Notes under the pieces: generated by a model
Databases searched by the model: none
The model's input: the letters and a program-made list of their open reading frames with translations, nothing else
What the model was told of the DNA's origin: nothing
In this document: piece after piece, positions 1 through 6,072 of the stretch
Layout of the letters: the number at the start of each line of letters is the position of its first letter
Position numbering within the stretch: the first letter of the stretch is position 1
Position numbers and translations under genes: made by a program
DNA from: Methanosarcina sp. KYL-1
Lineage (GTDB): Archaea > Halobacteriota > Methanosarcinia > Methanosarcinales > Methanosarcinaceae
DNA: 64,000 nt
Direction of reading: 5' to 3'
Assembly: GCF_024372725.1 (NCBI RefSeq)
Contig: NZ_VOUA01000008.1
Span: 1 to 64,000, forward strand

Positions 1-405
1 AGTTTCAGACAAATTCAGAAGTTCTGCCCGAAATCATGTACTTTGCCTCCCGATCAGGAAAGATCGGATCATGGACCTTTGCTCACACAATTGAGCTGTG
101 TGAGGGATTGCTAACATAGCATTCTTGATATATAAAGGTTTTGATTCTGGCAATTTCGTATATAGATTTTAGACAAAAACTGAATTTTGTCAGAATCAAT
201 ATAAATTGCCTTTCCGACTCCCGTATAACCGAGACTCGGACCCTTGCTCACACATTTGAGCTGTGTGAGGGGATTCCTTAACATATCAGTATTAATATAT
301 AAAGGTTTTCGTTGAGCAATTTTTATGCATATAGAGCCTTTGCAAAAATAGATTTTTGCCAGAATCTATAGATTTATTGCCCCCTGATCCCGCTTGATCA
401 GGGAA
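1..405. repeat. Tandem array of ~165-bp units with palindrome, TATA box and stem-loop
   Basis: Two full units and the tail of a third run from the left edge. Each has the same order: a palindrome CTCACACA-n7-TGTGTGAG (82-104 and 247-269), a TATA-like ATATATAAAGG about 30-50 nt later (129-138 and 295-305), a region whose ends pair (GGCAATTT at 149-156 with AAATTGCC at 203-210 in unit one, a weaker version in unit two), and a GC-rich hairpin closing the unit (about 50-68, 215-239 and 381-402). Bases 1-70 align with the 3' part of the other units, so the array continues outside the window. The order palindrome, TATA, stem-loop looks like repeated small RNA genes, but transcription is inferred. 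Confidence 0.75.
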
Positions 406-1133
406 GTACCAAGAGGCATCACCGGTATAAATACTTTCTGGTGAGCTGTGCCCAACAGAAGTATTTTATGAAAAAAGTAACCCAAATTCCTGCACAAAAA
501 GGATCAATAAATCACGAATACACACTACAATGAATAGAGATAGGCGTTGAAAGAAGATTTACAGATCTTAAAAAATATAGCAGAACGTATATTAATGCTC
601 GAATCAAAGGCACGGAATCCCGATGATTGAGGAATCAATGCACGTGAACTAACCCTCCCTAAAACCTTCGCCTGAAGGTTCAGGTTTTCATACTTGCATT
701 TAAAGAGGAATTTCGGTTCAATAATATATAAAAAAAGAAGAAATCATGTTATGTAACCGCATCAACAAACTTAGAAAAAAGACTAAGATAAGCACCTATT
801 TCAGTGCGATCCAAACTCTATTTTTAATAAATAGCTGAACTTTTGCTTTTTAATAACTTTTAAATTTTCCCGTGAAATATATATATCGCGAATTCCATTT
901 AATAGAAGGGGAGTTAAAATCCCTTTTGGAAGTTGGGAAGAATTTTGGGAATTTATACCTAATTTAGATCTTATTTAGCTGGGGCTGTGTAAAATAAGGG
1001 AGAAATTAGACAGCATGGACAGCGAAATCCATAAGGTCTTTTTATAGGTGCTTTTGGCTTTTAGCCCGATTTTGGCCCCTGAATAGAATCAGGGATTGTT
1101 TGCTCCTCAAATGCCAAAATGGAGGTTAGATAT
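406..1133 (+). other. Non-coding region and probable long leader upstream of mtaC
   Basis: No convincing gene lies here. Visible are an inverted repeat at about 427-471 (AATACTTTCTG pairing with CAGAAGTATT), an orphan IS end at 643-690, and an AT-rich stretch with TATA-like AAATATATATAT near 876-888 that may be the mtaCB promoter. Known mtaCB operons of Methanosarcina have long untranslated leaders, which would fit the roughly 230 nt between this box and the mtaC start. The promoter position is inferred. Confidence 0.4.
643..690 (-). mobile_element. Orphan IS1341/IS605-type right-end fragment
   Basis: The stretch beginning CGTGAACTAACCCTCCC and running through a CCTTCGCCTGAAGG hairpin matches the right end next to the TnpB gene at 23010-23055 almost base for base. 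No transposase lies beside it, so it looks like the remnant of a lost element. Confidence 0.6.
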
Positions 1134-1901
1134 TTGATAGACATAGATCCCAGTGCAATTCTGGTACGCTACAACGTGGCTCTGGAAAAGGAAATGACAC
1201 CTGAAGAGGCCGCAGAAGAGTTATATCCTAAAGACTCGGCAATTTATCCGATTGCAAAGGCCATCTTCGAGGGGGAAGAAGACGATGTGGTGGAAGGCCT
1301 GGAAAAAGCCATTGCTACGGGAAAGGATCCGATCTCCCTCATCAATGGAGCCCTGATGCCTGGAATGGCTGTCGTTTCCAAACTATACGATGACGGCGTT
1401 ATTTTCCTGCCAAACGTAATGATGTCCGCAGATGCAATGCTTGAAGGTATCGAATTCCTGAAGAAAAAAGCAGGAAAAGCACCCGAAGTTAAAGGGAGAA
1501 TCGTCTGCCATGTTGCAGAAGGGGACGTGCATGACATTGGGAAGAACATTGTTGTCGCACTTTTAAGAGCCAACGGTTATGACGTCGTGGACCTTGGAAG
1601 AGATGTACCTGTCGACGAAGTCATTGAAGCCGTGGAGAAAGAAAACCCACTCATGCTCACCGGAACTGCGCTCATGACCACAACCATGTATGCCTTTAAG
1701 GAGATCAACGACAAGCTAATGGAGAAGGGCTACAGGATCCCCTTCGCATGTGGTGGCGGTGCTGTGAACCAGGACTTCGTGTCCCAGTATGAACTCGGCG
1801 TGTATGGTGAAGAGGCATCCGACGCTCCAAAAATGGCCGATTTCATCAAGGCAAATGGGGACAACGTTGTTAAACTGAGGGAGAAATTCCACAAACACTG
1901 A
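1134..1901 (+). CDS. mtaC: MtaC, methanol corrinoid protein
   Basis: Carries the methyl group as methyl-cobamide between MtaB and MtaA in methanol-dependent methanogenesis (cytoplasmic). A helical cap domain fills the first ~120 residues; the Rossmann-like B12 domain has the motif GDVHDIGKN, whose His binds cobalt from below, followed by the LTGTALMTTT and ACGGGAVNQ segments of the family. I chose TTG at 1134 because a strong GGAGGT (1121-1126) sits 7 nt upstream; an ATG at 1119 overlaps that site and would give 260 instead of 255 residues. MtaB follows after 13 nt, so the two are co-transcribed. Identification is firm; only the start is open. Confidence 0.97.
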   Translation: MIDIDPSAILVRYNVALEKEMTPEEAAEELYPKDSAIYPIAKAIFEGEEDDVVEGLEKAIATGKDPISLINGALMPGMAVVSKLYDDGVIFLPNVMMSADAMLEGIEFLKKKAGKAPEVKGRIVCHVAEGDVHDIGKNIVVALLRANGYDVVDLGRDVPVDEVIEAVEKENPLMLTGTALMTTTMYAFKEINDKLMEKGYRIPFACGGGAVNQDFVSQYELGVYGEEASDAPKMADFIKANGDNVVKLREKFHKH

Positions 1902-1914
1902 GGAGGTGAAGTAG

Positions 1915-3300
1915 ATGGCAGTAAACAGATTCACTAAAATGGCTTATGCAAAAGCAGATGACATGGTCTTCGGAAAATCCGTCAAGCCCGTCAAAGCAGG
2001 ACTGGGACTTGAAATCGGTGCTGGCTACACAACCCCTGAAGTGAACTATGCTCCCAGGCCTGAAGCCGGAGCATCCAAGGAAAAGCTCGTAAAGGAATAC
2101 GAGAGGATCACCACTGACATCATGGCAAGGATGGTCCAGATCGGAGCTCCCTCCGTTGTCCTTGAAACCGAACACGTTCAGCAGATGTCCAACCACCCTG
2201 ACTGGGGAGCAGCTGTTGCCCACGCCCAGAAAGCTATCATGGAAGACTACCATGATGAGTACGGCATCAAGTGCGCGCTCAGACACACCATAGGAGACAT
2301 CCGTGAAGACCGTGACTACCTCAAACTCCAGGACAAGTTCCCGCTGCTTATGGAAGCCTTCGAGCAGTGCGCCCAGAACGGAGCAGACCTTCTTGCAATC
2401 GAAACAATGGGTGGCAAGGAAGTCTTCGACTACGCCATCCTGAGGAACGACATGGCCGGCGTGCTCTACGGTATCGGGTGCCTGGGCTCCATGGACATGG
2501 AACTGGTCTGGCAGGGCATCGTAGACGTCGCAAAGAAGAACAAGGTGGTAGCAGCCGGTGACACGGACTGTGCCCAGGCAAACACCGCAATGTTCATTGC
2601 CGGCGGCCTTCTGGACAAGAACCTCGCCCACACCCTGGCGATCATCGCAAGGTCAATTTCTGCCGCCAGGTCCCTTGTGGCCTACGAATGCGGTGCAACC
2701 GGCCCTGGCAAGGACTGCGGATACGAAAACACAATCGTAAAGTCCATTGCAGGCGTACCGATTGCCCAGGAAGGAAAGACATCCACCTGTGCCCACTCCG
2801 ACCTGATGGGCAACCTGGTCATGCAGTGCTGTGACCTCTGGTCCAACGAATCCGTGGAATACCATGGTGAATTCGGCGGTACCACCGTGCAGTGCTGGTC
2901 CGAGACCCTGGCCTATGACTGTTCCCTTATGAACGTTGCCCTCGAATCAGGTAACGAAAAGGTTCTCAGGGACATGTTCGTAGCATCCGACATGTACAGG
3001 GACCCGCAGGGCTACGTCCTCGCATACCCGCACGCCTACAGAGTCGGACAGGCAATCGCAAAAGACGGAAACAACATCTATCTCCGTGCCAAGAACGCCG
3101 CAATCGAATGCATCAACATCGTCGAAGAAGGAGCAAAAGGCAAGCTCTCCCTTTCAAGGTTCGAAGCCAAGGCCCTTGCAGACGCAAAGTCAGCCTTTGA
3201 AGCCCTCACCGATGACAAGGACAAGTTCATGAGCGACTGCCTTGACAAGTATAAAAAGGAAGTCAAAGTCTTCCTGCCAAAGGAGAACTACGGTCTCTGA
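1915..3300 (+). CDS. mtaB: MtaB, methanol:corrinoid methyltransferase
   Basis: Cleaves the C-O bond of methanol and methylates the corrinoid of MtaC. The 461-residue length is normal. The zinc ligands of the M. barkeri enzyme (Glu164, Cys220, Cys269) correspond here to Glu163 in AIETMGG, Cys219 in DTDCA and Cys268 in GKDCGY, so the enzyme should be active. ATG at 1915 has an excellent AGGAGGTGA site 6 nt upstream. It is the second gene of the mtaCB operon and ends just before a hairpin plus T-tract. The gene has strong codon bias toward C-ending codons, as expected for a highly expressed catabolic enzyme. Confidence 0.98.
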   Translation: MAVNRFTKMAYAKADDMVFGKSVKPVKAGLGLEIGAGYTTPEVNYAPRPEAGASKEKLVKEYERITTDIMARMVQIGAPSVVLETEHVQQMSNHPDWGAAVAHAQKAIMEDYHDEYGIKCALRHTIGDIREDRDYLKLQDKFPLLMEAFEQCAQNGADLLAIETMGGKEVFDYAILRNDMAGVLYGIGCLGSMDMELVWQGIVDVAKKNKVVAAGDTDCAQANTAMFIAGGLLDKNLAHTLAIIARSISAARSLVAYECGATGPGKDCGYENTIVKSIAGVPIAQEGKTSTCAHSDLMGNLVMQCCDLWSNESVEYHGEFGGTTVQCWSETLAYDCSLMNVALESGNEKVLRDMFVASDMYRDPQGYVLAYPHAYRVGQAIAKDGNNIYLRAKNAAIECINIVEEGAKGKLSLSRFEAKALADAKSAFEALTDDKDKFMSDCLDKYKKEVKVFLPKENYGL

Positions 3301-3301
3301 T

Positions 3302-3330
3302 CGAGGAAGTTCTTCCTTTTTCTCTTTTTT
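3302..3330 (+). terminator. Terminator of mtaCB
   Basis: GAGGAAG-TT-CTTCC followed by two pyrimidine tracts rich in T directly after the mtaB stop. Confidence 0.6.
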
Positions 3331-3635
3331 TCAGGATTTTTTCAGTTAAGGATTTTTTCAGAATTCTTTTGGATATTTCAGGATTTCTCAGGATTTTCTC
3401 AGGCATCACGGATCATTTTAGCCAGAGGCAGCCACAATTGGGACTGAGAACGAAATAAAGAGTCAAAAAAGAGTAGAAAAAGAGTTAAAAATGAGTAAAA
3501 AAAGAGTCGGAACCGGAAAAAACTCCGAAAACTGATTTAAAAAAAATTAAACCCTCGTTTTTAAAAAGGAAAAATTAAGTTAAAAAATAGAGAGAAGATG
3601 TTTTGTATATCAGCTTTTTATTCATCAGTTTTTAT
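3331..3635. other. Convergent intergenic region between mtaB and mtaA
   Basis: Holds only degenerate short repeats (TTTCAGGAT-type motifs at 3331-3410, then AAAGAGT-type motifs at 3460-3515). No gene seen. Confidence 0.5.
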
Positions 3636-4655
3636 TCAAGCATAATACTCGTCCCTTGCTGCGACCATGGCTTTGATGTTCTCAAGAGGAGTCATGGGGG
3701 CAATTCCACAGCCCGGAGCAAGTACATCCACACCGTCCGCAAGGGCCTGTTTGGATTCGGTCTTGATCTTTTCGATAGGACCTGGCAGCAGGGTGAAGGG
3801 GCTGGATATGTTTCCGACGAGCCTTGCTCTTGTCCCGATAACTTCCTTTGCCTTCTTGACGCTGCCTATCTTTTCTTCGACGCTCAAGCCCTCAAAGCCG
3901 CAGTCTGCCATGTAGTCCAGGACCGGGTTCACGTTTCCGCAAATGTGCAGGACGGTTACGGAATTTACATCGGCAGAGAACTTCTGCAGCCTGGGCTGGA
4001 GGTACTGCTTGAAGGAGTCGGGGCTCATGAGGTCAGGGGATGCGACAGGGTCAGCCACGGAAATGACATCTGCCCCTGCTTCGACCATTGCGTTTGCATA
4101 TTTGATTGTAGCTTCGGTGGCAAGGTCAAGGACCTGTTCGAAAAGGTCTGGTTTCTTGATGGACCATTTCATGAAGGACTTTACACTTGCAAGGTCGGAG
4201 GCAACGGTGATCGGGCCTTCCATACCGCCGATGATGGGCACATCGGGACCGACCTTTCCCCTGATGATCTTAATCGCTTCAAGCACAGCAGGAATCCTGC
4301 CCCTCTGCAACAGGTCCTCTGGGATTGATGCGCCTTCAAGGTCTTTTGGGTACGGATGCCCGGTAACCGATGGCTGCCTGTTCTTTGTACCCATGTTGAT
4401 TTCACAGCCCATGCCTTCGACAAGCACGGTCAGGCAGTAGGGGACCCTCACAGCCTCAAGCCCGCTGAGTTCATGGTTGGCAATTGCCAGCTTTGCCATC
4501 AGCCCTGCATCGGAGTGAGCTTCCGGCCAGGGTGCCCCCACTTCATCCATGAGTTCTACAATCCCGGTCTGGGTGACGGAACAAACAGGCGTTTTGTCAA
4601 CTGTCTTGCCTTCGAGGGCATTTAAAAGCCTCTCCTTAAGTGTCATATTACTCAT
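3636..4655 (-). CDS. mtaA: MtaA, methylcobamide:coenzyme M methyltransferase
   Basis: Transfers the methyl group from methyl-MtaC to coenzyme M, giving methyl-CoM for methane formation. It is a 339-residue uroporphyrinogen decarboxylase-fold protein. The zinc ligands are exactly where they are in the characterised enzyme: His237 and Cys239 in the HICGN motif and Cys316 in APGCGIAP. The gene faces mtaCB from the opposite strand, so the complete methanol-activating set lies within 3.5 kb. An ATG three codons downstream (MTLKERL) is an alternative start. The isozyme MtbA (methylamine-specific) is related, but the sequence around the ligands and the neighbours point to MtaA. Confidence 0.95.
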   Translation of the reverse strand: MSNMTLKERLLNALEGKTVDKTPVCSVTQTGIVELMDEVGAPWPEAHSDAGLMAKLAIANHELSGLEAVRVPYCLTVLVEGMGCEINMGTKNRQPSVTGHPYPKDLEGASIPEDLLQRGRIPAVLEAIKIIRGKVGPDVPIIGGMEGPITVASDLASVKSFMKWSIKKPDLFEQVLDLATEATIKYANAMVEAGADVISVADPVASPDLMSPDSFKQYLQPRLQKFSADVNSVTVLHICGNVNPVLDYMADCGFEGLSVEEKIGSVKKAKEVIGTRARLVGNISSPFTLLPGPIEKIKTESKQALADGVDVLAPGCGIAPMTPLENIKAMVAARDEYYA

Positions 4656-5091
4656 CTTTTATCTCCCCTTACGTTTAGTTTCCTGAATAGGAAGTTCTTT
4701 GAAATGTTTGTTTATAGGATAGCCTAATTAAACTTATATCAAATTTATTCCACAAGTTCGCCTCATTGACCCCCTTAGAGGCACATCAAGGTTTCAGAGC
4801 TGTCCTGAATGGCTATATCACCAGCAGGGTACTGAAAGCCCCGGGTCAGGATTGACTAGTATAATCTCTATTTTATGCTATATCATTGTTTGGGATTGTA
4901 CAAACCCGAAGCTGTAACCCGTACATAAGCCGTTATAAAAACAAATAAGAACACGCCATCCAAATAATTGCAGGAACATTTCCGGGAACAAAGCAAACAA
5001 TCAAGCAAAAAACCGCTCAAAAGAAAATCCCGCTCAAAAGAAAATCTCGATCAACCACATAAACAGAAAAAACCAGAAACGGAGCCAGACC
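4656..5091. other. Intergenic region with divergent promoters (mtaA and macro-domain gene)
   Basis: AT-rich near mtaA (4680-4750), with a TATA-like stretch on the minus strand around 4720-4745. No open frame or strong secondary structure found. Confidence 0.35.
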
Positions 5092-5616
5092 ATGCTGCAA
5101 ATTTCGGAGAAAATAAAGGTAATTGAAGGCGACATTACAAAACTGGAAGTCGATGCCATAGTAAATGCCGCAAACCCCACACTTCTGGGAGGCGGAGGCG
5201 TGGACGGGGCCATCCACAGGGCTGCAGGCCCGGAACTGCTGGAAGAGTGCAGGCACCTCAACGGCTGCCCCACCGGTGAAGCCAGGATCACTAAAGGATA
5301 TCGACTGCTCGCAAAATGGGTGATCCACACAGTGGGCCCGGTCTGGCAAGGGGGCAGGAAAGGCGAAGACGAACTGCTGGCTTCCTGCTACCGGAAGAGC
5401 CTGGTACTTGCCAGGGAATACTCCGTAAGGACCATTGCCTTTCCGGCCATCAGCACGGGAGTTTATGGCTTTCCTTTGGAGAGGGCTGCAGGGATTGCGG
5501 TTTCCGAAGTAAGGAACTTTATGAAGGAAAATGAACTGCCCGAAACTGTGTTTCTGGTCTGCTTTAACAGAGAAGCCTGCAGGCACCTTCGAAAAGCTAT
5601 TGCTGAAAATCTTTAA
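5092..5616 (+). CDS. Macro-domain protein (ADP-ribose/O-acetyl-ADP-ribose hydrolase type)
   Basis: A single macro domain fills the 174 residues. The ligand-binding loops are clear: [16 protein letters not shown] near the N-terminus, [14 protein letters not shown], and the second loop [15 protein letters not shown]. The Asn of NAAN and the VDGAI segment match MacroD-type enzymes that remove ADP-ribose from proteins or deacetylate O-acetyl-ADP-ribose. It stands alone between mtaA and the TPR gene, so context gives no partner. No SirTM-type sirtuin lies beside it, so a housekeeping role in ADP-ribose turnover is the simplest guess. Confidence 0.92.
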
Positions 5617-6072
5617 AAGCCTGGTTGTGACTTTAGAATATCTTTTTATATCTCGTTTTATAATTTAGGGTGCCTGCGAAGGAGACACAGGGAAATTTGC
5701 AATCTCCTGTAAACAAAACCCCAAAGAAAACAGGAGAAGAAGCTAATGTTTCCCTTCTCATTTCTTGAGGATCGTTTATATATTATGTTAGAAAATTAGA
5801 TTCTAAATAAAAATTAATAATGACAATAGATTACAGGCATCACAAGAAAAAGCTGACCTGATGAAATATGACCAGATGAAATCGTCTGGTTTTATGCCAG
5901 GTATTGCAAACCTCATATAGTCCACTAAACTAAACTGTAAAATTTACGAACTAAACCAACATGTTCACTAAACTAAAATGTTCACCAAATCAACATGCTC
6001 AATAAACTAATATACACATAAATACGCCTATTTTCACACCTGAACCTGCAGTAGTAGACCTGAAAAAAGGGA
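5617..6072. other. Intergenic region upstream of the TPR gene
   Basis: Contains a TATA-like TTTATATCTCG near 5645, a second near 5775 (TTTATATATTATG), and degenerate repeats of the form ACTAAACTAAA/ATGTTCACCAAA at 5925-6030. No gene seen. Confidence 0.35.

Follow-up and report, generated by a model that had tools for sequence, protein, structure and literature searches.

What is a tandem array of palindromes, TATA boxes and stems doing beside the methanol genes mtaCB, at the very start of a contig? The array occupies positions 1 to ~440 of the window (the whole stretch of 64,000 nt that was analysed), and a first-pass annotation had assigned it to the methanol operon, possibly as serial small RNA genes. 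From sequence comparison we conclude that this region very probably (about 94%) belongs to an array of tandem promoters for an rRNA (rrn) operon, of which it would be the upstream portion, located on the minus strand and directed leftward, past the contig end and away from mtaCB.

Layout and direction of the array

The elements described at first, a tandem repeat of ~165 bp with a palindrome, a TATA box and stems, are all present. Two complete units of ~166 bp and a third, degenerate one can be recognized. The repetition is apparent as direct repeats of 34 nt (94% identity, 73-106/238-271, spacing 165) and 46 nt (76% identity, 97-142/264-309, spacing 167), together with the palindromes CTCACACA-N7-TGTGTGAG at 82-104 and 247-269. 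The motif TATATAAA at 129-136 and 296-303 is the plus-strand reading of the TATA boxes, and stems are found at 50-67 (CCGATC/GATCGG), 213-240 (TCCGA..TCGGA) and 382-403 (CCCTGATC/GATCAGGG). In folding, all three 5' segments are more stable than their own mononucleotide shuffles (z -2.6, -4.9 and -3.3).

The direction of the array is given by the BRE, since TTTTG at 139-143 on the plus strand is CAAAA on the minus strand, the direction of the rRNA gene, and the plus-strand reading has no comparable BRE. The TATA boxes had thus been assigned to the wrong strand, and the transcription starts near 157 and 322 that follow from a plus-strand reading are not to be expected. On the minus strand each unit has a characteristic order: BRE (CAAAA or GAAAA), CC, TTTATATA, ~22 nt, a first hairpin, a second hairpin (CCGATC.. 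or TCCGA..), an inverted repeat (GRCAAAA..TTTTGYC in the window) and the next BRE and TATA box. At least two BRE/TATA core promoters therefore stand in series, with TATA boxes at 136-129 and 303-296, a weak one at 433-426 and one more on another contig of the same genome (C26, see below), so that the idea of a serial array with a promoter for each unit was right. The published core promoter consensus of Methanosarcina, i.e., CAAAA, 2 bp, TTTATATA and a start ~23 bp further on (PMC11409679), covers promoters of protein-coding genes and makes no mention of rRNA. Each of the predicted promoters is presumably active.

Following the predicted direction of transcription, the distal promoter P1 (426-440) has a degenerate TATA box, TATTTATA, at 433-426 preceded by a purine-rich CAGAA at 440-436. 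Its transcript would start at ~406-410 and open with the hairpin CCCTGATC-N6-GATCAGGG (382-403, -14.9 kcal/mol, z -3.3), which is present in relatives too; at four loci of other Methanosarcina, the rrn operon linked to mtaC has GTATTTAT followed by ~25 nt and the CCCTGATC hairpin as well. Upstream of P2 lies the inverted repeat GCAAAAA-N4-TTTTTGC (342-359), within a longer imperfect one (CTATAGATT.. / ..CTATA), and a GCAAAA..TTTTGC repeat occupies the equivalent place in many long-spaced units of relatives. P2 (296-310) has the BRE GAAAA (310-306), CC and the TATA box TTTATATA (303-296), matching the consensus except for one BRE base (GAAAA for CAAAA), with a predicted start at ~279. Its first hairpin, CTCACACA-GCTCAAA-TGTGTGAG (247-269), is supported by covariation on 64 units, and its second, TCCGAGTCTCGG / CGGGAGTCGGA (213-240), by folding and by equivalent CCGATC..GATTGG hairpins in relatives. 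The inverted repeat GACAAAA-N6-TTTTGTC (172-191) separates it from P3 (129-143), an exact match to the consensus on the minus strand (BRE CAAAA 143-139, CC, TATA box TTTATATA 136-129), with a predicted start at ~109-112. The first hairpin of P3 is CTCACACA-GCTCAAT-TGTGTGAG (82-104), supported by the same covariation, and the second, recognized by sequence and folding, is CCGATC-N6-GATCGG (50-67). The repeats at 342-359 and 172-191 of the window represent a nested inverted repeat, CTATAGATTTTGCAAAA..TTTTGCAATAAAATCTATAG, that long-spaced rRNA promoter units carry directly before the TATA box, in relatives too (three loci and others); its wobble pairs, too few for a strand preference, are split 3 vs 3.

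Association with rRNA operons

Position 1 of the window is also position 1 of contig C8, and the array has been cut there by the assembly. The first-pass annotation had stated that the array leaves the window; this exit reflects the position of the contig end, and the array can be followed further on C26, another contig from this genome. Positions 1-136 of the window (minus strand) have a second copy at the start of that contig (C26:272-407, 136 bp, 99% identity), from where C26 continues through one more promoter (C26:184-253) and then a conserved pre-16S leader of ~180 nt. The segment up to the 16S edge of the contig measures about 271 nt, and the contig ends beside the expected 16S start. 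All the Methanosarcina rrn copies examined share, with small changes, the leader (..GGAGTCAGGAGTTTTTTCCTGTCTGACGAGGATTTTGTCGGTTCGGTTAATTCTGG..) that follows the array. The 16S gene was not found in the assembly of this genome, which indicates that near-identical rrn copies broke or collapsed the contigs, and this is why the window begins at contig position 1. Since the adjoining 16S gene is unassembled, the linkage of the C8 copy to 16S rests on C26 and on synteny in the relatives. The upstream neighbour of the C26 array is a leuA/cimA-like gene (named from a reading of its sequence) instead of mta.

In the closed relative G004 an array of the same kind is flanked by mtaC on one side and, on the other, by the 5' end of the 16S gene, which lies on the strand of the array, and the same order (mtaC, array, 16S) and strand are found in closed relatives. 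Across the genus, one of three rrn operons has mtaC as its divergent neighbour. This divergent arrangement beside one rRNA operon was seen in many Methanosarcina (window 1-1901, at least 15 other loci).

We collected 104 units, from 40 regions upstream of rrn operons, from the window and C26, and from the ends of draft contigs. The distances between them form two clusters, at 67-71 bp (31 cases) and at 157-174 bp (20 cases), the long spacing corresponding to a short unit plus the second hairpin and the inverted repeat. On the rRNA strand of 100 units from relatives, TTTATATA is preceded almost invariably by AAAGC. A covariance search, proposed in the first-pass annotation, was carried out with a model (R1) built from 64 units and 69 positions. 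It matched P2 (C8:242-313, E 1.9e-6), P3 (C8:77-146, E 9.7e-9) and 29 of the 31 Methanosarcina genomes. The 11 closed genomes have 70 matches with E<=0.01, and all 70 lie directly upstream of a 16S gene, at a distance of 196-633 nt and on the same strand, a target zone that makes up about 0.03% of the sequence of these genomes. A further class of rrn operons, seen at 14 loci, has another promoter set, AAAGCTTTATATACTAAAACT.. with one hairpin of the CCAGCATGA/TTGTGCTGG type and another, proximal one, TTCCTGCAT..ATGCAGCAA.

This distribution bears on the alternatives to an rrn promoter array. The divergent order of rrn and mtaC is kept across the genus and shared control is imaginable, so that the array could be a cis-regulatory region of mtaCB, with sites for Msr or other regulators repeated by chance. 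The units, however, track rrn operons, including those beside leuA-like and other genes away from mta, and mtaC is ~690 bp away from the distal promoter of the array and probably has a promoter and 5' UTR of its own at ~875-1118, ~440 bp to the right of the array. We found no evidence tying the array to methanol control; the assignment to the methanol operon was mistaken, and we have rejected an mtaCB (Msr) control region, given the genus-wide location of the array, as highly improbable. Just as improbable are small RNA genes arranged in series on the plus strand, each behind a TATA box of its own, in the methanol operon region. A TATA box can indeed be read in TATATAAA on the plus strand as well, and either strand allows the repeated stems to fold, but the BRE belongs to the minus strand, the units are confined to the upstream regions of 16S, and an Rfam search of window positions 1-6000 gave no match up to E = 5. 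Independent small RNA loci, with a plus-strand promoter and a terminator of their own, were rejected on these grounds, the units being read instead as the serial starts of one pre-rRNA leader. The distal promoters might additionally yield separate short stable RNAs (promoter-derived sRNAs) beside the pre-rRNA, as the two or three hairpins between promoters in long units would allow; we consider this unlikely, since no obvious U-run follows the hairpins in the sequence and Rfam has no match for such RNAs. The rrn promoter array thus remains our reading of the locus.

As a separate observation, a conserved block precedes mtaC (window ~875-930 and several relatives), with an AT-rich TATA-like run and then an inverted repeat (TTAAGAGGAGTTAGGAGTCCCTTTAA in L010, GGGGAGTTAAAATCCCTTTT in the window). 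It probably represents the promoter and 5' UTR of mtaCB.

Hairpin and palindrome at the predicted start

Each promoter is followed by a hairpin at ~+5 to +30 of the predicted transcript. RNAalifold run on a MAFFT alignment of the units gave no consensus structure on either strand, probably because variable loop lengths shift the arms, and we have counted instead an explicit structure on 64 distinct units. In the 8-bp helix 82.4% of the cells are paired, vs 76.3% in shuffles, and helices slid along the units as controls reach only 22-55%. Changes on both sides (compensatory) are seen at 7 of the 8 pairs, with 32 such cells vs 10.5 in shuffles, which confirms the earlier remark that the stems keep their pairing though the bases differ. 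The arms are indeed variable (CTCACACA/TGTGTGAG, CTGCGCAA/TTGCGTAG, CTCGTACA/TGTGCGAG, CCAGCATGA/TTGTGCTGG and CCCGCAT/ATGCGGGG) and pairing persists in all of these. A structured segment is found at the equivalent place in other genera of the Methanosarcinaceae, in two Methanocella-like genomes and in two genomes of a further family (names of groups inferred). The 22 segments from outside the genus, chosen by eye from their position after the TATA box, have a mean z of -3 against mononucleotide shuffles. Variable arms, preserved pairing and a structured start in other groups taken together argue for an RNA structure in the nascent pre-rRNA, and we regard this role of the hairpin as somewhat more likely than not.

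The alternative is that, within the same rrn promoters, CTCACACA..TGTGTGAG is a DNA operator, a dimer site directly downstream of the start. A half-site common to many copies within one genus would fit such an operator, and the rRNA strand has no advantage in folding energy (49 vs 47 of 96 units, and 11 of 22 outside the genus), so that a role at the DNA level has to be considered. Against an operator, the arm sequences change widely and stay paired, and on the rRNA strand G-U is more frequent than A-C at the seven interior pairs (65 vs 14, counts that are phylogenetically non-independent and include misaligned rows). We take the operator as a possible but rather doubtful explanation, and favor the RNA hairpin. 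From the serial promoters several RNA polymerases could load onto one 16S-23S operon, which would give a high and adjustable output of pre-rRNA. Whichever promoter is used, the primary transcript would open with a hairpin, situated about 5-10 nt downstream of the 5' end, and this would probably protect the triphosphate end from exonucleases or ease early elongation and promoter escape.

The region between the TATA box and the start has its own signature. In relatives (rrn promoters L031-L062), the palindrome TATATACAAG-N6-CTTGTATRTA spans this interval. The exact form TACAAG-N6-CTTGTA has 34 copies in ten closed Methanosarcina genomes (the genome of the window is not among them), 32 of which are in rrn promoters as judged against 16S coordinates. 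In the genome of the window it has drifted (TCAAGAATGCTATGTTAGCA in P3, nearly identical in both C26 units), with TATA box, BRE and hairpin retained despite the drift. It is a candidate regulator site common to the rrn promoters.

Tandem rRNA promoters in archaea

Tandem promoters of archaeal rRNA operons are already known, and what this array adds is the hairpin at the start and the palindrome, both worth a bench test. By experiment, the rRNA operon of Halobacterium cutirubrum has five promoters, at least one of them growth-rate-dependent (Dennis 1985, cited in PMC4983044), and that of Haloferax volcanii has three transcription start sites, at 185, 293 and 444 nt (PMC4983044). As in these haloarchaea, serial TATA promoters within several hundred nt upstream of 16S serve one pre-rRNA. 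The sequence and spacing are different, with units of ~70 or ~165 bp and TTTATATA boxes in Methanosarcina, where in addition a hairpin follows each TATA box and the palindrome of relatives spans TATA box to start, a comparison made with only a few haloarchaeal leaders. Serial promoters on stable-RNA operons are familiar from bacteria as well. The rrn operons of Escherichia coli have tandem P1 and P2 promoters that depend on sigma-70, UP elements and Fis sites and are under ppGpp control. These are bacterial promoters with no homology to the Methanosarcina array (for the tandem arrangement see PMC5179076). Our literature search retrieved no description of Methanosarcina rRNA promoters, which is weak evidence as the subscription literature was mostly outside its reach.

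For the annotation of such loci, adjacency to mtaCB at a contig end is no ground for assigning the array to methanol regulation. The control of rRNA output in archaea is poorly known, and about 100 homologous units now point to two elements that can be put to the test in methanogens amenable to genetics, namely the covarying hairpin with which pre-rRNA would begin and the palindrome, found almost only in rRNA promoters. A bolder and rather doubtful possibility is that a dedicated hairpin right at the 5' end of pre-rRNA is encoded by most rRNA promoters of the Methanosarcinales and Methanocellales, and that the Methanosarcina palindrome is bound by a rapidly evolving, undiscovered rRNA-specific regulator. 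If both parts hold, this would be an archaeal counterpart of the growth-rate control of rRNA synthesis.
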